Part shown: positions 36,619 through 49,822 of the stretch, in pieces | Layout of the letters: every line of letters begins with the position of its first letter | Position numbering within the stretch: position 1 is the first letter of the stretch | Assembly (NCBI RefSeq): GCF_000242595.2 | Contig: NC_017098.1 | Location: 1,054,001-1,118,000, forward strand | Reading direction: 5' to 3' | Length of the DNA: 64,000 bases | DNA from: Spirochaeta africana DSM 8902 | GTDB taxonomy: Bacteria; Spirochaetota; Spirochaetia; DSM-27196; DSM-8902 | The notes under the pieces: generated by a model | Databases searched by the model: none | The model's input: only the letters and a program-made list of their open reading frames with translations | What the model was told of the DNA's origin: nothing | Program-made: the position numbers and the translations under genes

Positions 36619-36639
36619 AACGACGGTTTATCCGTCGTT
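36619..36639 (-). promoter_or_regulatory. Intercistronic hairpin between the two GGT-like genes
   Basis: AACGACGG and CCGTCGTT pair across a five-base loop and include the stop codon of the upstream gene. No T-run follows on the minus strand, so it may stabilise or attenuate rather than end the transcript. Confidence 0.5.
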
Positions 36640-39093
36640 ATCCTCCGTCAGAACCTCTGCCTGGTTAACCCCGCCACGGGGATCTGCTCCCAGGGCCAGC
36701 TCACCGCTCTCGGGATCGATGACGATCATATTGGCATTGCCCCAGATGCCGCCTTCGCTCACCGTATGACCCCGTGCCTCCATTGCCTCGCGCAATTCCT
36801 GCGGAGTTCCTTCCTCCATGCCAAGGTCGTTGTCGGCCTCCCATGGATACTGGGCAGAGGGGAATCCCCGGGTAAGAAAGCGGGGGTGGCTGACGGCATC
36901 CTGTGGGCTCATTCCGAATTCAACGACCCAGATAAACTGCTGGGTCTGCCCCTGGGGCTGGGTATCAACGCCGGTGTTGCCCCCCAGAATGTACGGCTTG
37001 TCATCACGCAATGCCATGTATGGATTACTGGTATGGCGCACCTTTTTCCCGGGGACAATCAGATTCGGGTCCCCCTCGTTCACTGACATCATGCGCATAC
37101 GGTTATTGATGTGGATACCGGTATCGCCCAGCACCAGAAACTGCGAGCCCAGACTGGTCGTTGTAGATACGGCATTCCCCTGGGAATCTATGATCTGGAA
37201 TGTAGTGGTATGACTGTAGTCGGGGTCGACCGGGAGCAGATTCTCCACGGGCCATTCCAGCACGCTGTCCATGCTGATTTGTGCCCGGCGCTCATCCGCA
37301 TGCGCAGCAGACAGCAGCTCGGCAACAGGCACCTCTACCCAGTCAGGGTCGCCGACGTGATAGTATTTATCGATATGCGCCAGCTTGATTGCCTCGGTAA
37401 GCAGATGAACCACATCCGGATCATCAGGTCCCGTATAGCCTGAGAAGTCATAGTCCTTCAGGATGTTCAGTGCCATAAGCTGGGTTATCCCCTGGCTGTT
37501 GGGCGGGTTCTGGAAAACCTCGATACCGTTATAATCAATAGAGATCGGATCTACCATGTTGGCATGGTACGGCGTGAAGTCGGAAAGTGCGAAGGGACCA
37601 TCGTTGGCATCCGAAAAACCGACTATGCGCTCGGCCAGAGGACCGCGATAGAAATAGTCAGCAGCAGCTGCCAACCCGCCTCGATGCCCACGTTCTTCAG
37701 CGAACCGGCGATAGGTGTCGGCAAGCCGCTGGAAAGTGTCAGCCATTTCAGGGATCTGCAGTGTATCTCCCTCTGCCGGCATGTTTCCGTCGGGCAGGTA
37801 GATAGCAGCGGTATCCGGGCGATCATTCAGGATGGCTTCCAGGTCGCCCTCCAGCCTGTTGATCAGCTCAGGACTGGCCGGGAATCCGTCGCTTGCCAGT
37901 CGGATGGCCGGTGCCAGGATCTGATCCAGCGGCAGCTCGCCGAATTCGATGAGTGATTCGATCCAGCCTCCCCAGGCCCCCGGTACAACGGCCTGATGCA
38001 AACCGTCGCTGCCGGCTCGCGGAGTAAAGTACTCAACGGTGTTGCCGGCTGCCACCGGACCAACCCCGTCCTGACTGTGCACCTGTCCGGAGGCGGCGTC
38101 GTAATGCAGCGCCCAGGTTCCGCCCCCCAGCGCACTGGAGAACCAGGGTTCGACAACACTCAGGGCAGCTGCCACTGCGACCGCAGCATCGGTTGCGGTG
38201 CCGCCAGCCTCCAGAACCTCTATGCCGGCTGCGGTAGCCAGAAAGTGAGCAGAAACTACGCCTGCCTGCTGGTTATGCGGGGGGGAGTCGGCAGTCGCGG
38301 CCGTGTCGGCCGGGGCGGTATCCGGGCTGTACACCCGGGTCAGTGCCATGGTGCGCATAATCAGTGCCCGCAGCCGCTCAGCATCCCGGGTGTGGCCCAA
38401 TGGTTCCAGTGATGCGTACAGCTCACCCGGATGTACATCGGGGTGAGCGGCTTCCAGTATTTCCTGCAGCTGCTTCGGGGAGATCCCGAAGGTTTCTTCA
38501 ATCCCTATGTGCTGTGTTTCTTGTCCATCTATCACCGAAAACTCAGGCAGGCTGGCGTCCTCGGCATCGGATCCCAGGGTTACCGAGAAGCGATAGATCT
38601 GGCCGTCGTTGTCGGGCTCAAAGCTTTCCTGGACAAAGCTGCGGCTGCGCTGCAGCTGCTGCTGTTCGGGGCCGTTGTTGGCTGCCGCGCTAAGGGCCGC
38701 CGCATACAGCGCTGCAATGCTGTCCGCATCCGGCGCGTCAGTATCCAGGTTATCCGTGTCCGGGCTGTCTGCAGGCAGGGTATCGGATGCCTGGGGTTCT
38801 GTTGCGTAGTCTTCCAGGTCCAGCTCCTGTGCCGATGTTGTTTCGCCGAAGGCACTGCGGCGCTGGTGATAGGCAGCAACTACCTCTCCGTTGGAGATCT
38901 CCAGGGTGACTTCATCGTTCCAGCCGTGTGCATCCGGCAGGCTGAAATAGGCGGTGTAGCTCCCGCTGTCAAGGCTGTTGGCAGTAGAGCATCCTGCTGC
39001 GGCAAGGAGTATCAGTATCCCGACAATTCCCCTGCGCAGCAGGGCTCCCGCTTTCGAATCCACGACGATTTTTCCTGATAAATTTACATGCAT
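36628..39093 (-). CDS. Gamma-glutamyltranspeptidase-like lipoprotein with extra N-terminal domain (first of pair)
   Basis: The 821-residue protein has an AGGAG site and a lipoprotein signal ending LLAAAGC (Cys about 35). Residues 40-260 form a domain absent from the paralogue (SGSYTAYFSLPDAHGWNDEVTL and onward), split by an Asp/Pro/Thr-rich stretch (about 95-125). A GGT domain covers the rest, with HTTTFQIIDSQGNAVSTTTS (nucleophile Thr), GDTGIHINNRM and GGNTGVDTQPQG. The N-terminal domain resembles small secreted domains seen with FMN-binding lipoproteins, but this is tentative. It forms an operon with the following paralogue. Confidence 0.85.
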   Translation of the reverse strand: MHVNLSGKIVVDSKAGALLRRGIVGILILLAAAGCSTANSLDSGSYTAYFSLPDAHGWNDEVTLEISNGEVVAAYHQRRSAFGETTSAQELDLEDYATEPQASDTLPADSPDTDNLDTDAPDADSIAALYAAALSAAANNGPEQQQLQRSRSFVQESFEPDNDGQIYRFSVTLGSDAEDASLPEFSVIDGQETQHIGIEETFGISPKQLQEILEAAHPDVHPGELYASLEPLGHTRDAERLRALIMRTMALTRVYSPDTAPADTAATADSPPHNQQAGVVSAHFLATAAGIEVLEAGGTATDAAVAVAAALSVVEPWFSSALGGGTWALHYDAASGQVHSQDGVGPVAAGNTVEYFTPRAGSDGLHQAVVPGAWGGWIESLIEFGELPLDQILAPAIRLASDGFPASPELINRLEGDLEAILNDRPDTAAIYLPDGNMPAEGDTLQIPEMADTFQRLADTYRRFAEERGHRGGLAAAADYFYRGPLAERIVGFSDANDGPFALSDFTPYHANMVDPISIDYNGIEVFQNPPNSQGITQLMALNILKDYDFSGYTGPDDPDVVHLLTEAIKLAHIDKYYHVGDPDWVEVPVAELLSAAHADERRAQISMDSVLEWPVENLLPVDPDYSHTTTFQIIDSQGNAVSTTTSLGSQFLVLGDTGIHINNRMRMMSVNEGDPNLIVPGKKVRHTSNPYMALRDDKPYILGGNTGVDTQPQGQTQQFIWVVEFGMSPQDAVSHPRFLTRGFPSAQYPWEADNDLGMEEGTPQELREAMEARGHTVSEGGIWGNANMIVIDPESGELALGADPRGGVNQAEVLTEDNDG

Positions 39094-39185: not shown

Positions 39186-39217
39186 CAAATAAACCGTTTT
39201 AATGAGGGGTGTGGGGT

Positions 39218-41569
39218 ATGTACGTGAAGCAAAACTTGCGTTTTTTTTTGATTTTCGGGGTTGTCGCAGGGATACTGATCAGCTGTGTCAGTCAACCCCA
39301 GCCGGCAGCACGCGCGGCTGGGGCGCGAACCGTCACCGAGGTTCAGGTATATGAGCCGAACGTTCCGTTCGAAGTCCTGCCGGATCGGGTAGTACAGGGG
39401 GAGCGTGACGCGATCGCCGAAAGCCCGATGCGATTGACGTCCCGCTATTTCCGTCGCGAGACCACACGAGAGATCGAGAAAGATCTGTCTGCACTGCCGC
39501 AGCTTTCGGCACCAAACTATCCGCTGCTGGAGACCCTGTATAATCTGGCCCTGGAAGAGGCTTTGCAGAACGAGGAAGAGGATGGGACCTTTCGGACCGG
39601 TGCGTTATGGGCAGGGGTGTGGACCCGGGACATTGCCTATGCGGTGCACCTGGGGCTGGGCCCGGTCTTTCCCGAGTTGAGCTACAACAGTCTTATGCGA
39701 AAGGTAAATGACATGCCCGAGGTGATCCAGGATACCGGGACCGGGGGGGCCTGGCCGGTGAGCACCGACCGGGTTGTCTGGGCAATCGCCGCCTGGGATC
39801 TGTACAAGGTTACCGGTGACAGCAGTTTTCTGGCGGATATATATGAAATCCTTGCCAACACCGCGCGCCGCGATATTCGGGTCGCCTATGATCAGCAGCT
39901 TGGTCTGTTTTTGGGCGAGTCAAGCTTCCTCGACTGGCGTGAGCAAACCTATCCCGTCTGGATGAATCCGGTAGATATATACGAAGGTTATGCCCTGGGC
40001 ACCCTGGTGGGGCATGCCGAGATGTACAACATCCTGGGCGAGGTCGGGGCGCTGATAGGAGCGCCGCAGTCGGAACTGGCAACCTGGTCCCGGTATGCAC
40101 AGGCTGTTACCGAGGGGATTCATCAGCAACTGTGGCTCGAGGATCTGGGGTATTACAGCGGGTATCAGTTCCCTAAAGCAGCCTCTGGCTATAGCGATAC
40201 CCCGCTGCTGAACCAGCAAAGTGACAGCCTGGGTACCGCGCTGGCGGTTTTAACCGGGGTTGCTGGCGAGAATGCCGCCGCTGCAGTCACGGGGCTGCCG
40301 GTCGTGCTGTACGGGGTTCCCAGCATCTATCCGCAGAATCCGCACGCCCCGCCGTACCATAACAAGGGGATCTGGCCGTTTGTGGTAGCGTATTATACCT
40401 GGGCCGGTGCCGAAACCGGCAATGACGCAGCGGTTACCCATGGCATGCAGTCGCTGATGCGCGCAGCTGCTTTGTTTATGACCAACAAGGAGAACATGGT
40501 CTACGACACCGGTCATTCTGTTGGCACCCAGCTGAATTCGGATCGCCAGCTATGGTCTGTCGCCGGCTTCCTTACCAATGTGTACCGTGTTGTGTTCGGG
40601 CTGGACTACCAGCTGGACGGGCTGGGCTTTAAACCGTTTGTACCGCAGTTTCTGGAGGGGCCGTTTGAGCTTGCCAATCTGCGGTATCGCGATGCGCTAC
40701 TGAGCATTGAGGTGCAGGGACGCGGCAACGAGATACGTGAGCTGCGTCTGAACGGCGAGTTGCAGGATTCTGAGTTTGTATTCCCGGCTGATGCGACAGG
40801 GGAGCATCGAATCGAGATCGTTTTGGCCGATAATGATCCTGGCGGCAGCATTACCATGGGAACAACCGATGCCATACTGCCACATGAGCCGCTGCTTGAA
40901 TCGGTAACTGTTGCACCCGATGGCGAGATCAGTCTCAGCTGGGAGCCGGTGCCGGGAGCAGAGTACTACGAAGTCCTGCGTAACGGCATCGCGGTGGCCG
41001 AGATTCCTGCCGGACAGACCGAGTATCGGGAACGGTATCAGGATCCGGATACGGATCGTATTGCCGCATTCTCGGTAAGAACCTACAACGGTTCACCGGT
41101 TGGGTCCCTGGCATCCTCCTATGGGCTGGCGATACCCGCCTCCCGCAGTCGCCTGTATCAGGCCGAGGAGGCAGCAGGGGCTGCAGTGGTCGGCAATCGG
41201 GGAGAGGGATTCACCGGCGAGGGCTATGTCGAGATCGATATGGACAGCCCGGCCTTGCGTTTCCGAATCGAGGTTAATCGTGCCGGTGAATATGCACTGC
41301 GGTTCCGGTATGCCAACGGCAATGGCCCGATAAATACCGAGAACAAGGCTGCGCTGCGCAGCGTGTATATCGACAATGGTGAACGGCATACCCTGCTGAT
41401 GCCCCAGCTGGGAGAATGGCAGCGATGGGAATACAGCAACAGCATCGTGGCCACGCTTGATGCCGGCAGCAGTGAGGTCGTGGTGCGCTACGAAGACCTT
41501 GATCGCAATATGCACGGCCGGATCAACGGTGCCTGGATCGATCATCTGCAAGTGGTGCGTATTGAATAA
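39218..41569 (+). CDS. Six-hairpin glycosidase-like lipoprotein with Fn3-like and CBM-like domains
   Basis: The 783-residue protein starts at ATG 39218 (GAGGGG upstream); a GTG three codons earlier is less likely. Lipobox LISC places Cys near 23. An (alpha/alpha)6 domain spans about 95-480, with GALWAGVWTRDIAYAVHLGLG, AWPVSTDRVVWAIAAWDLY, SFLDWREQTYPVWMN and NKGIWPFVVAYYTW; acidic residues there suit glucoamylase/trehalase-type hydrolysis. A short beta domain, an Fn3-like segment (about 555-640) and a CBM35-like C-terminus (RLYQAEEA ... GAWIDHLQVVRIE) follow. The substrate is an unidentified glycan. Confidence 0.78.
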   Translation: MYVKQNLRFFLIFGVVAGILISCVSQPQPAARAAGARTVTEVQVYEPNVPFEVLPDRVVQGERDAIAESPMRLTSRYFRRETTREIEKDLSALPQLSAPNYPLLETLYNLALEEALQNEEEDGTFRTGALWAGVWTRDIAYAVHLGLGPVFPELSYNSLMRKVNDMPEVIQDTGTGGAWPVSTDRVVWAIAAWDLYKVTGDSSFLADIYEILANTARRDIRVAYDQQLGLFLGESSFLDWREQTYPVWMNPVDIYEGYALGTLVGHAEMYNILGEVGALIGAPQSELATWSRYAQAVTEGIHQQLWLEDLGYYSGYQFPKAASGYSDTPLLNQQSDSLGTALAVLTGVAGENAAAAVTGLPVVLYGVPSIYPQNPHAPPYHNKGIWPFVVAYYTWAGAETGNDAAVTHGMQSLMRAAALFMTNKENMVYDTGHSVGTQLNSDRQLWSVAGFLTNVYRVVFGLDYQLDGLGFKPFVPQFLEGPFELANLRYRDALLSIEVQGRGNEIRELRLNGELQDSEFVFPADATGEHRIEIVLADNDPGGSITMGTTDAILPHEPLLESVTVAPDGEISLSWEPVPGAEYYEVLRNGIAVAEIPAGQTEYRERYQDPDTDRIAAFSVRTYNGSPVGSLASSYGLAIPASRSRLYQAEEAAGAAVVGNRGEGFTGEGYVEIDMDSPALRFRIEVNRAGEYALRFRYANGNGPINTENKAALRSVYIDNGERHTLLMPQLGEWQRWEYSNSIVATLDAGSSEVVVRYEDLDRNMHGRINGAWIDHLQVVRIE

Positions 41570-42736: not shown

Positions 42737-42790
42737 AGCACAGCCTTTCCCTTTTCAGTCTAATCCAGGGATGCCGATTTTGCCAGCCAG

Positions 42791-42820
42791 AAAAAGCAGG
42801 CTGCCGGAAGGGCAGCCTGC
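42791..42820 (-). terminator. Intrinsic terminator of the sugar ABC operon
   Basis: GCAGGCTGCC (42796-42805) and GGCAGCCTGC (42811-42820) form a perfect 10-bp stem with a 5-base loop. On the minus strand it is followed by five T's. Confidence 0.85.
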
Positions 42821-42866
42821 AGGAGGTGAGGATGCTGCTGTACCTGTGCGAATACAGCAGGAAGGG

Positions 42867-44405
42867 TTATACGGTCTTCAGTTTACTGCGGTCGAAGGTG
42901 GTGCCGGTCGCCAGGGCGACACTGTGGTAGCCGCCATCGTAGATCCCGATGCTCTTGTTACGCACGATGCTGTCGCAGTACATGCGAAGCAGATCATCTT
43001 CCTGGGTCATCAGGTCAATGGCCTGCAGGGTTTCCGGAATGGTACGGGTTTCACAGGTGCTGTCGCCAACCTCTGCACCGCGCACCGCGCCCCACATCTC
43101 GTGACCGCCGACGCGGGCATTGAAAATCTTCGGGACCGGGTAAAACGCCAGCTCACTGGGCTTGGTGATCATGATGTCGACAACACGCATCAGATAGTTG
43201 GTGGCATACACACCATGGTAGATGTTGTCGTGCAGGAACACATGGATCCCCTCGGCGTGCCCGGTGCGGATGCTGTCGGCATAGCTGCGGGTATCATCCC
43301 AGCTGAAGTGGGTGGTTACCTTGTGTATATCATTGCCAAGTTCTTTTTTCAGCCACTCCCAGTTGGAGGCGTGATCCCCGAGGTTCAAAAACAGCGCAAC
43401 CTTCTTTTCCGCTACCAGGGGCAGGCAATGCTTGAGGATAGCCAGAAACAGCTCGCGCTGTGCGCCGGCTCCACCCATGGTAACCATCAGGCGACGCGGT
43501 TCACCGGACTCCATCCGCGCAATGCGAGCGGCACAGTCATCCTCGATATTATGCACCAGCTCGTGGTCCACATGGTGACCAACGAAGTGCAGGGCATCCG
43601 CGGGTACCGGTTTCATGGTTCGGCCCTTCTCGTCGAAGCCGCGCATGGCACGAAAGCCGTAATACCCGGAAGGGGTTTGCACTGCATGCTTGGCGCCTTC
43701 TGTAAGCTGGAACGCCATTGGCCAGTTGTCAAACATCATGTCGACTACATTGGTCATACCCCCGGCAACGGCTCCCATGCAGTTCCACATATGGGCGGTA
43801 AGGATCGGCATGTCAGAGGGCAGGGTACCGAACAGCCCGGCGAACAGCTCGCTCATCTTGTAGTCTTTTACGTTGGTTTTCAGAAAACGCCAGGGCCAGC
43901 CGACAATCCAGGAATTCAGGAATGCGTTGAGCAGCGGCAGAGAAGGTTCCCCGGTGGTAACCGGCTCCCAGATATGGGTATTGAACCATGAGCTTCGCTG
44001 CGAGGTGCGCGAGAATCGACTGTACCAGGTGTTACAGAAGTTGATGACATCGGTTGAAATCCCGGGGATAGACAGTAAATCCATCCACAAGGGGGTGTAG
44101 CCCATCGCCTGGGCGCAGGAAGCCCCGGCCATAGCGATCCGGTAATGACCAAATCCCATCCGGATGGTGCTGCAGACCACTGCATTATCGGCTGAAATCG
44201 GTTCGCCATTTCCGTCACGCACGATATTCCGCAGTCCAAGCTCGCTGCCAAGGTAGGTGTTGTCCACCACCGAAAGGTTGTAGCTCTCGCTGGGATCAAA
44301 GTCGAACTTCTTTACGAACATGCGCTGCCATTTGTCGGTCTTACGCGATTGCTTTTTGCTCAGCTCGTTGCCGTATACGCTGTAGCGTCCGTTGTGTTTT
44401 TGCAT
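42867..44405 (-). CDS. Unrecognised enzyme, GT-B/glycosyltransferase-like, last gene of sugar ABC operon
   Basis: The 512-residue soluble protein starts at ATG 44405 behind AGGAG. I cannot name a characterised family. Two stretches resemble the two Rossmann-like halves of GT-B enzymes: CSTIRMGFGHYRIAMAGAS (about 65-83; GxGHxR near an N-terminal strand) and LMVTMGGAGAQRELFLAIL (about 322-340; glycine-rich C-terminal nucleotide loop), with ALFLNLGDHASNW after it. Tryptophan and histidine content is high (HMWNCMGAVAGG, FVGHHVDHELVHN). Its position after the two permease genes suggests it acts on the imported sugar as a phosphorylase, glycosyltransferase or epimerase. The identity is open. Confidence 0.72.
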   Translation of the reverse strand: MQKHNGRYSVYGNELSKKQSRKTDKWQRMFVKKFDFDPSESYNLSVVDNTYLGSELGLRNIVRDGNGEPISADNAVVCSTIRMGFGHYRIAMAGASCAQAMGYTPLWMDLLSIPGISTDVINFCNTWYSRFSRTSQRSSWFNTHIWEPVTTGEPSLPLLNAFLNSWIVGWPWRFLKTNVKDYKMSELFAGLFGTLPSDMPILTAHMWNCMGAVAGGMTNVVDMMFDNWPMAFQLTEGAKHAVQTPSGYYGFRAMRGFDEKGRTMKPVPADALHFVGHHVDHELVHNIEDDCAARIARMESGEPRRLMVTMGGAGAQRELFLAILKHCLPLVAEKKVALFLNLGDHASNWEWLKKELGNDIHKVTTHFSWDDTRSYADSIRTGHAEGIHVFLHDNIYHGVYATNYLMRVVDIMITKPSELAFYPVPKIFNARVGGHEMWGAVRGAEVGDSTCETRTIPETLQAIDLMTQEDDLLRMYCDSIVRNKSIGIYDGGYHSVALATGTTFDRSKLKTV

Positions 44406-44472
44406 CTCTGTGTGCTCCTGGGTATGTTTCGCAGCCGGCATACAGCCGGCTGAATTGTGCGTGGTCAGGTGA

Positions 44473-47698: not shown

Positions 47699-47728
47699 AA
47701 AAAAAATCCGGTACATTTGTACCGGATT
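47699..47728 (-). terminator. Intrinsic terminator of the two-component operon
   Basis: AATCCGGTACA (47705-47715) and TGTACCGGATT (47718-47728) form an 11-bp stem with a 2-base centre. On the minus strand it is followed by a T-run of about eight (A-run 47699-47706 on the plus strand). Confidence 0.85.
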
Positions 47729-47738
47729 CTGGCTGGGG

Positions 47739-48410
47739 TCAGTGTTCATGGTACCGGATCTTGTTGGCCAGCTGAATGATCTGGAAGCGATCATGGATTT
47801 CCAGTTTGGAGTAGATGATGCTGACATGGTTGCGGACGGTTTGCTCGGCAATACACAGCTTGTCTGCTATCTGCTCGTTGTCGTAGCCGGTAGCAATCAG
47901 GGTGAATATCTCCCGTTCCCGCTTGGTCAGGCTGTCAAACCACTCGAACTGCTCGCCGATCTTCTGGATACTCGGCCGGCTGTCGTCATGGATTCCCTGT
48001 ACCAGCTTGGCCGCGACCTGGGGGCTGATCTGCAGCACCCCGGACTCCAGGGCGCGGATGCTGGCGATCAGCTCTGTCGGGGAGATATCCTTTAAAAGGT
48101 AACCCGAGGCACCGTGGGTCAGGGCCTGGCGGACATAGTCATCCTCATCATAGGTGGACAGCATGATTACCTTGATATCCGGATAACGTTCGCGCAGCAG
48201 CCGGGTGGCCTCCACCCCGTTCATCTCCGGCATGTGTACATCCATCAGTACGATGTTGGGATTGTGCTGTTCAGCCAGATCCAGGGCATGTCGACCGTTT
48301 CTGGCCAGGGCGACAACCTCAAGATCCTCGGCGTAGTTGGTAATAAATGTTTTCAGGCTTTCTGCAAACAGCTGCTGGTCATCAACGATCAGTATGCGGC
48401 TGCGATTCAT
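47739..48410 (-). CDS. NarL/FixJ-type response regulator
   Basis: The 223-residue protein has a receiver domain with phosphoacceptor Asp 57 (NIVLMDVHMPEMNG), ThrSer/Lys switch region (VIMLSTYDEDDYV; SGYLLKDIS), and a LuxR-type HTH (LTKREREIFTLIATGYDN; TVRNHVSIIYSKLEI) at about 155-210. Its start overlaps the kinase stop by 4 bp. A likely target is the downstream sugar operon, since the two units are adjacent and in the same direction. Confidence 0.94.
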   Translation of the reverse strand: MNRSRILIVDDQQLFAESLKTFITNYAEDLEVVALARNGRHALDLAEQHNPNIVLMDVHMPEMNGVEATRLLRERYPDIKVIMLSTYDEDDYVRQALTHGASGYLLKDISPTELIASIRALESGVLQISPQVAAKLVQGIHDDSRPSIQKIGEQFEWFDSLTKREREIFTLIATGYDNEQIADKLCIAEQTVRNHVSIIYSKLEIHDRFQIIQLANKIRYHEH

Positions 48411-49822
48411 GTGCGAGCCTCCCTTTCTTGCGGGGGTGTGACCGGTGCCGGTTGGTCACCTTCTGCCTCGGGGGTATGCCGGGCGCGGTAGGTGCTGCCA
48501 TGCGGCACCAGCGGTACGCAGATGTACAGGCGGAACCCGCCTTCCGGGGCATTACCGGCTTCTATGCTTCCCCCCAGGCGGCGAGTGCGTTCCTCCATCC
48601 CGATCAGCCCGATTCCCTTGTGGATCTCGCTGCTGCCGATACCATTATCATGGATGTTGATGATAAGCGTATCCTGATGTATCCAGAAGTGCAGGCTGAC
48701 CTGCGATGCCTTGCCGTGCCTGATGGCGTTGGTCAGGCTCTCCTGCACGATACGGTAGAGACTGCGGTTCAGCTCGGTATCGAAGCTGGCCGGCAGGTTG
48801 CCGAAATGCAGCTCGACCGTGGTTCCGGTAACCTGCTGGAAGATACTGGTGATTTTGTGGATGGTACGCAAGCCGCTGTCACTGCCGTGACGCACCTCGC
48901 GCTGCTTGCGCAGCGCGATACGGGTTTCCTGCAATCCCTCCTGCGCCTGTTTACGGGCATTGGTCAGCAGTTCCGTCAGCTGCTGCGGGTTCCGATTGCC
49001 GGTGCTGATCGCGGCATCCATCAGCGCGATCAGATTGGTGAACATGTATCCGGAGATATCGTGCAGTTCCCGGCTGATCCGGTTGCGCTCACGCTCGGCG
49101 GATTGCGCGTCGGCGGTCTGCGCCCAGCGCTGCAGCCGCTGGTTGAACTCGGACAGGTTGTCCAGACTTGTTTCCTGCTGCCGCGACAACTGGTAATAAT
49201 GGCGATAACGGTATGCATAGCTGGCCAGCAGCTGAAAAGCGGTGGCCAAGAATACCAGCAGGATAAGGATCAGCAGCGTGCCCAGGGCAGGGATCGGGTC
49301 CATACCGACCGGTGCAAAGGCATTACGCCCCAGTAATGTGCTGTTGAGTCCGATCCATACAATCCCCAGCAGAAGTGCCAGATGCAGACTCGTCCTGCCA
49401 ATCAGGTGACGATCCAGAAGTGAGGTTTCTGCCTGCTGCACCATGATCAGCGGCAGGGGTATCAGCAGAAAGTCGGTTACCGTATAGGTAATCAGGATCA
49501 GGAACAGAATCTTGACCGCCAGCAGGCTGCGAATAGCTGGTGGACTGTGCAGGAGATGCAGCAGCAGACTGGCTGCCGCAATGCCGATAATGTATACCAT
49601 CACGGTTTCGTGATAATACGCGGCAGTTTCCCGCTGAGCCAGACTCATGTGGAAGCCAGCCCCGGCGGCAGCATAGCCCAGCAGCTGCAGCACCAGCAGC
49701 GGGGTGTGGAAACGGCTGGTATCAGGGCGGCGGGGGAACCGGCGGTCGCGCAGTTGGACAATCCAGCGTCGCACGGCAGTGTGCATGTACTGATGAATGT
49801 AGGCTGGTCTTGCTGGCTGCAT
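48407..49822 (-). CDS. Membrane histidine kinase (HisKA_3, NarX/DesK-like)
   Basis: The 471-residue protein has about six hydrophobic helices in residues 30-225 (a possible multi-pass sensor with little periplasmic sequence). A coiled linker and the HisKA_3 phosphorylation site follow (RNRISRELHDISGYM, His about 255). The HATPase has N-box LTNAIRHGKA, G1 IHDNGIGSS and G2 GLIGMEERTRRLGG. It is paired with the overlapping regulator gene. It starts at a leaderless-type promoter divergent from the PP2C gene. Confidence 0.92.
   Translation of the reverse strand: MQPARPAYIHQYMHTAVRRWIVQLRDRRFPRRPDTSRFHTPLLVLQLLGYAAAGAGFHMSLAQRETAAYYHETVMVYIIGIAAASLLLHLLHSPPAIRSLLAVKILFLILITYTVTDFLLIPLPLIMVQQAETSLLDRHLIGRTSLHLALLLGIVWIGLNSTLLGRNAFAPVGMDPIPALGTLLILILLVFLATAFQLLASYAYRYRHYYQLSRQQETSLDNLSEFNQRLQRWAQTADAQSAERERNRISRELHDISGYMFTNLIALMDAAISTGNRNPQQLTELLTNARKQAQEGLQETRIALRKQREVRHGSDSGLRTIHKITSIFQQVTGTTVELHFGNLPASFDTELNRSLYRIVQESLTNAIRHGKASQVSLHFWIHQDTLIINIHDNGIGSSEIHKGIGLIGMEERTRRLGGSIEAGNAPEGGFRLYICVPLVPHGSTYRARHTPEAEGDQPAPVTPPQEREART

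Follow-up and report, generated by a model that had tools for sequence, protein, structure and literature searches.

The gene closing a sugar-import operon of Spirochaeta africana DSM 8902 encodes a 512-residue protein of the Pfam families DUF6937 and DUF6938 (hereafter the DUF protein), which we regard as a GT-B enzyme with a very probable role in galactoside catabolism. Its distant kinship to glycosyltransferase family GT28, together with the galactose-releasing and galactose-using genes that surround it in many bacteria, suggests that it probably helps to consume galactose-containing molecules such as the head groups of galactolipids. A beta-galactoside seems the somewhat favoured target. 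Phosphorolysis as the reaction falls slightly short of an even chance, and galactosylglycerol as the main substrate is a little less probable still. The best single reading, an inverting beta-galactoside phosphorylase with galactosylglycerol as its substrate, is tentative to the same degree. Computational evidence covers the gene, its operon, its fold, the distant relation to GT28 and the neighbourhood of galactose genes, and is strong for the fold and for the galactose pathway.

Within the window (the whole stretch of 64,000 nucleotides that was analysed), the same-strand gene order and the terminators at both ends delimit a unit made of a sugar-binding protein, two permeases and the enzyme, in which the DUF gene comes last (Table 1). 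It follows the MalG-like permease after 67 bp and has a 10-bp G+C-rich hairpin plus TTTTT at its 3' side, which agrees with the original prediction of a gene joined to a binding protein and two permeases and followed by a clear terminator. The annotated start appears correct, with the motif AGGAG 9 nt ahead of its ATG (44405); an alternative in-frame ATG at 44441, giving a longer open reading frame, is less likely. A 406-aa frame on the plus strand (42771–43991) that overlaps the gene was discarded as an antisense open reading frame that nothing supports. Directly upstream of the operon there is a NarL-type response regulator with a HisKA_3 kinase (47739–49822, minus strand), which may sense the same substrate; we set this two-component pair aside as an operon member because a terminator separates it from the binding protein gene.

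Table 1. Features of the operon and of the DUF protein, in window coordinates.
Feature	Position	Strand	Basis or remark
DUF6937+DUF6938 gene, 512 aa, GT-B fold (predicted), GT28-like	42867..44405	-	Pfam, fold, orthologues
Shine-Dalgarno AGGAG of the DUF gene	44415..44419	-	sequence
ABC permease, MalG/UgpE/GlcU type, 302 aa	44473..45381	-	Pfam + NCBIfam
ABC permease, MalF/UgpA/GlcT type, 292 aa	45391..46269	-	Pfam + NCBIfam
Sugar-binding protein, SBP_bac_1, 427 aa	46357..47640	-	Pfam + NCBIfam
Intrinsic terminator closing the operon	42796..42820	-	sequence
Terminator between upstream response regulator and sugar-binding protein	47703..47730	-	marks the 5' boundary of the operon
N-domain loop RMGFGHYR (residues 82-89), corresponding to the GT28 GxGH loop	44139..44162	-	hhalign
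C-domain glycine loop GGAGAQ (residues 311-316)	43458..43475	-	aligned with GT28 GGxG loop
TKPSELAF (residues 414-421) where GT28 has TKPGGxTxxEA	43143..43166	-	profile and hhalign alignments

The protein is covered by full-length matches to DUF6937 (PF22052; residues 10–252, E 6.5e-94) and DUF6938 (PF22053; residues 267–500, E 1.5e-96), in this order and with 314 and 323 bits against a Pfam gathering cut-off of 27; Pfam assigns a function to neither. The original prediction had recognised no family and had spoken of a new enzyme; since the protein falls in an existing pair of Pfam domains, that novelty holds for its function and not for its family. No mention of either domain was found in the literature searched, NCBIfam gives the protein no name, PHROGs contains no match to it, and the Pfam and NCBIfam scans revealed no match to known glycoside phosphorylase families. 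The viral contigs scanned hold no relative, and a viral fold search retrieved mostly general glycosyltransferases. A match to DUF6938 occurs in 101 of 393 genomes from the phylum, and in 85 it is strong (E below 1e-30); the 14 control genomes have none. A scan of GTDB genomes provided 80 loci with 64–75% identity, distributed over Spirochaetota, Chloroflexota, Actinomycetota and a handful of other groups. The window's genome (3.29 Mb in a single contig) has one copy. In a genome of the same order the gene is divided into two open reading frames of 225 and 256 aa (L139:6745-8309), possibly a pseudogene or an assembly error.

The AlphaFold (AF2) model built from 81 sequences reached a pLDDT of 88.8 and a pTM of 0.91 (the single sequence gave a useless model, pLDDT 39), and the PDB matches listed for it are almost all GT-B enzymes. 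Model and matches agree with the GT-B-like character proposed originally, and the predicted GT-B fold is well supported. Among the 50 PDB matches listed, the plant galactolipid synthase MGD1 (4wyi) ranks first by target-normalised TM-score (0.63) and shares the first place with a UDP-GlcNAc 2-epimerase by the query-normalised one (0.44); these scores are moderate, with UDP-GlcNAc 2-epimerases nearly equal to MGD1. MGD1 belongs to GT28, an inverting family that includes MGDG synthase (PMC5809773). Sequence searches lead in the same direction. A phmmer search of the PDB with the single window sequence returned chance matches only (e.g., DppC), and a profile of 32 diverse members yielded a single credible match there, to a processive diacylglycerol beta-glucosyltransferase (9wde, E 1e-4). 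An hhalign comparison with six proteins of GT28 type, of which one was confirmed by Pfam as MGDG_synth, spanned 342 columns (E 3.5e-7, probability 93). Distant paralogues match MGDG_synth weakly (E 0.003–0.005, 17–18 bits against a Pfam cut-off of 25), and the window protein matches neither PF06925 nor PF04101 at E up to 1, with DUF6937 and DUF6938 as the sole domains reported. It does not belong to GT28 in the Pfam sense, and the profile comparisons support the description "distant relative of GT28".

A sister family of paralogues, 440–490 aa long, is related to the DUF family at E 3e-28, and its profile has 9wde as its sole PDB match. These uncharacterised GT-B-like proteins (L112–L131, e.g., L119:5992-7338) match DUF6938 weakly and have the motif TKPSEL[AS]F in common with it. 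Several copies adjoin a gene of GT28 type, such as L112:4850-6007, which matches MGDG_synth; some stand beside an AAA ATPase (L126). Around the paralogues of L121, L122, and L124 the gene order is kept (clusters c35–c39), and one gene of these conserved surroundings (L121:769-1572) has no Pfam match.

The GxGH- and GGAG-type loops pointed out in the original prediction of a 512-residue frame correspond to RMGFGHYR and GGAGAQ, both nearly invariant across the 81 orthologues. H87, within the first, is invariant in this alignment and stands as a candidate catalytic histidine. The GT28 donor-nucleotide loop (GG/A-x-T-x-x-E) is shortened by a deletion of about five residues, which fits a loss of UDP-sugar use; its conserved Glu may still align, as E418, so nucleotide binding might have been retained.

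The genomic context was studied in 79 loci of close orthologues, with seven genes either side and flanks of up to 8 kb. Sugar-ABC genes adjoin the DUF gene in 64 of them and at least one galactose gene does in 62. A LacI or DeoR regulator is present in 44 loci, an alpha-galactosidase of GH31 or GH36 type in 34, GalT in 24, a monoacylglycerol-lipase-like hydrolase (ABH) in 20, GH42 or GH1 in 19, GalK in 14, and GH4 in 8. Immediately upstream on the same strand, 25 loci have a permease gene, 17 the lipase-like gene and five GalK. The GH31 neighbour is of the alpha-galactosidase type (MYORG 3e-109; GH31 alpha-galactosidase 3e-82), the GH36 is closest to AgaA, the GH42 to beta-galactosidases and the hydrolase to monoacylglycerol lipases. 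The presence of alpha-galactosidases, beta-galactosidase, galactokinase and GalT among the partners identifies the sugar as galactose. The original prediction, an enzyme for an imported sugar, is in this way upheld in part, its transporter context being confirmed and the sugar narrowed to galactose; the searches led to no family unrelated to sugars, and orthologues standing apart from sugar transporters are the minority. The smallest arrangement is a LacI-SBP-permease-permease-DUF-GalT operon without any glycosidase (L081). The best matches of the window's binding protein and permeases are about 37–48% identical and come from nine loci where the DUF protein is 66–72% identical; several of these loci carry GH42, GH36, or GalT. 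In four loci (L042, L052, L057, and L059, e.g., L059:1909-3006), a gene for a 365-aa protein without Pfam match separates the DUF gene from the transporter or lipase-like gene.

Galactose genes also accompany the DUF gene in distant spirochaete clades, with the order GalK-GH36like-DUF in L155, L156, and L157, DUF-GalK-GH36like in L159, GH36like-DUF in L158, and DUF-MFS-GH36like in L172. The GH36-like protein matches solved alpha-galactosidases at 1e-47, and of 30 spirochaete loci, 17 have its gene directly upstream of the DUF gene on the same strand, with intervals from -79 to +263 bp. In a FastTree tree of the DUF protein the ABC-linked genes come together in a single clade (support 100), and those with an alpha-galactosidase as neighbour appear in several separate clades, on a tree with long branches and unsure deepest forks; the galactose link is therefore wider than the ABC link. 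Taking the 85 strong matches as DUF-positive genomes, a GalK signature is present in 83 of them against 208 of the 308 remaining (odds ratio 20, p 2e-10, in a test that ignores phylogeny), and GalT is weakly associated (38/85 against 89/308). We had considered the local presence of GalT without GalK as proof that Gal-1-P is produced. This argument was dropped because GalK is encoded elsewhere in all 15 genomes checked with such a locus.

The operon of the window contains neither glycosidase nor lipase, and its genome encodes elsewhere a GH36 and a GH42-GalE-GalK cluster, the latter with a divergent LacI (G000:C1, about 2.7075–2.7124 Mb, L173). GalT was not found in this genome; at a guess, a partial UDPGP match might replace it. 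A GH42 beta-galactosidase is encoded in ten of the loci, all of them devoid of GH31/GH36 (p 0.008), and there a second enzyme cleaving beta-galactosides looks redundant. Both the missing GalT and these ten loci weaken the specific claim of a phosphorylase. Near the operon, a 786-aa protein (39209–41569, plus strand) with a lipoprotein-like signal and weak matches to (alpha/alpha)6 glycosidases and CBM35, below Pfam cut-offs, is possibly a secreted glycosidase, and an 821-aa open reading frame (36628–39093, minus strand) resembles, judged by eye, a gamma-glutamyltranspeptidase lipoprotein.

We infer the imported substrate, the bond cleaved and phosphate as the acceptor as follows. The ABC transporter would take up a galactoside from which, in many relatives, the lipase-like hydrolase could strip acyl chains and the alpha-galactosidase the alpha-linked galactose. 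The DUF enzyme, probably cytoplasmic and derived from a GT28 (MGDG-synthase-like) lineage recruited for galactoside catabolism, would then split the remaining galactosyl bond. Its likeliest reaction would be an inverting phosphorolysis, beta-Gal-glycerol + Pi -> alpha-Gal-1-P + glycerol. As GT28 is inverting, phosphorolysis of a beta-galactoside would yield alpha-Gal-1-P, which is the substrate of GalT and would thus enter the Leloir pathway. Plant or cyanobacterial galactolipids, through their mono- and digalactosylglycerol head groups, would be the likeliest natural source, and the three enzymes together would take apart a digalactosyl-acylglycerol.

A different galactoside (lactose, galactinol, galactan fragments, or raffinose-type sugars), although rather doubtful, is the strongest competitor of galactosylglycerol and changes the substrate of the preferred reading with its phosphorylase or transferase mechanism intact. 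The GH42, GH1, GH31, GH36, and GH4 neighbours are not specific for galactolipids and the lipase-like gene reaches just a quarter of the close loci (20/79), but the closest relatives of the DUF protein form or extend beta-glycosyl-glycerol lipids, a lipase-like neighbour has no obvious role in the use of lactose or raffinose, and alpha-galactose, beta-galactose and acyl-glycerol jointly match digalactosyl-diacylglycerol. Somewhat less probable, and unlikely on balance, is a nucleotide-dependent galactosyltransferase working in the GT28 way, or in reverse with UDP, that remodels the imported galactoside or moves galactose into UDP-Gal. The closest characterised relatives do use UDP-sugars, E418 is alignable with the donor-loop Glu, galactokinase, which feeds UDP-Gal, is near-universal in DUF-positive genomes, and the window's genome lacks GalT. 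Against it stand the short donor loop, surroundings devoted to import and breakdown rather than synthesis, and the GalT found within operons, needless if UDP-Gal were made directly.

Other chemistries are known among GT-B enzymes, and the TM-scores of UDP-GlcNAc 2-epimerases next to that of MGD1 could suggest a hydrolase or epimerase acting on the imported galactoside or a galactose derivative; we consider this improbable, as the window protein has no epimerase family match at E up to 1 (Epimerase_2, PF02350, included) and profile-sequence searches point to GT28 alone. Least probable of all is a diverged MGDG synthase making or turning over the cell's own galactolipid with precursors from the galactose genes: MGDG-type synthases are the closest in fold and sequence, galactokinase co-occurs and the window's genome has no other MGDG_synth-family gene, but the DUF gene resides in LacI/DeoR-regulated import operons with alpha-galactosidases, its window product has no MGDG_synth match at E up to 1, and such close tracking of sugar transporters is unexpected for a membrane-lipid enzyme.

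As much as 80% of chloroplast lipids are galactolipids (PMC5809773). The use of galactosylglycerols by bacteria has been discussed mainly via beta-galactosidase (PMC8333865). A system devoted to import and cleavage and present in Spirochaetota, Chloroflexota, and Actinomycetota would make this route directly testable. It would also supply two Pfam DUFs with a function and, if the reaction is phosphorolytic, extend the listed mechanisms of GT-B enzymes. The known inverting phosphorylases belong to GH65, 94, 112, 130, 149, 161, and GT108, this last a GT family with a beta-propeller fold, and the list of a 2022 review includes no inverting GT-B phosphorylase (PMC8950772). That the DUF6937/DUF6938 protein is the first one, an MGDG-synthase-like enzyme turned beta-galactosylglycerol phosphorylase with a central place in a widespread bacterial route for consuming galactolipid head groups, is an unlikely extension of our proposal.

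Compared with known systems, the DUF protein has in common with Arabidopsis MGD1 (4wyi) and the processive diacylglycerol beta-glucosyltransferase (9wde) the GT-B fold, the GxGH and GGxG loops and an ITKP motif at the donor site of the C domain, and differs in having no Pfam MGDG_synth match, a donor loop about five residues shorter and a location in import operons. Phosphorylases within GT families are already represented by GT35, of GT-B fold, and GT4, both of them retaining (PMC8950772). The proposed logic of import, inverting phosphorolysis to alpha-Gal-1-P and GalT resembles the GH112 galacto-N-biose/lacto-N-biose phosphorylase pathway, whose enzyme is instead a (beta/alpha)8 protein of unrelated fold (PMC8950772).
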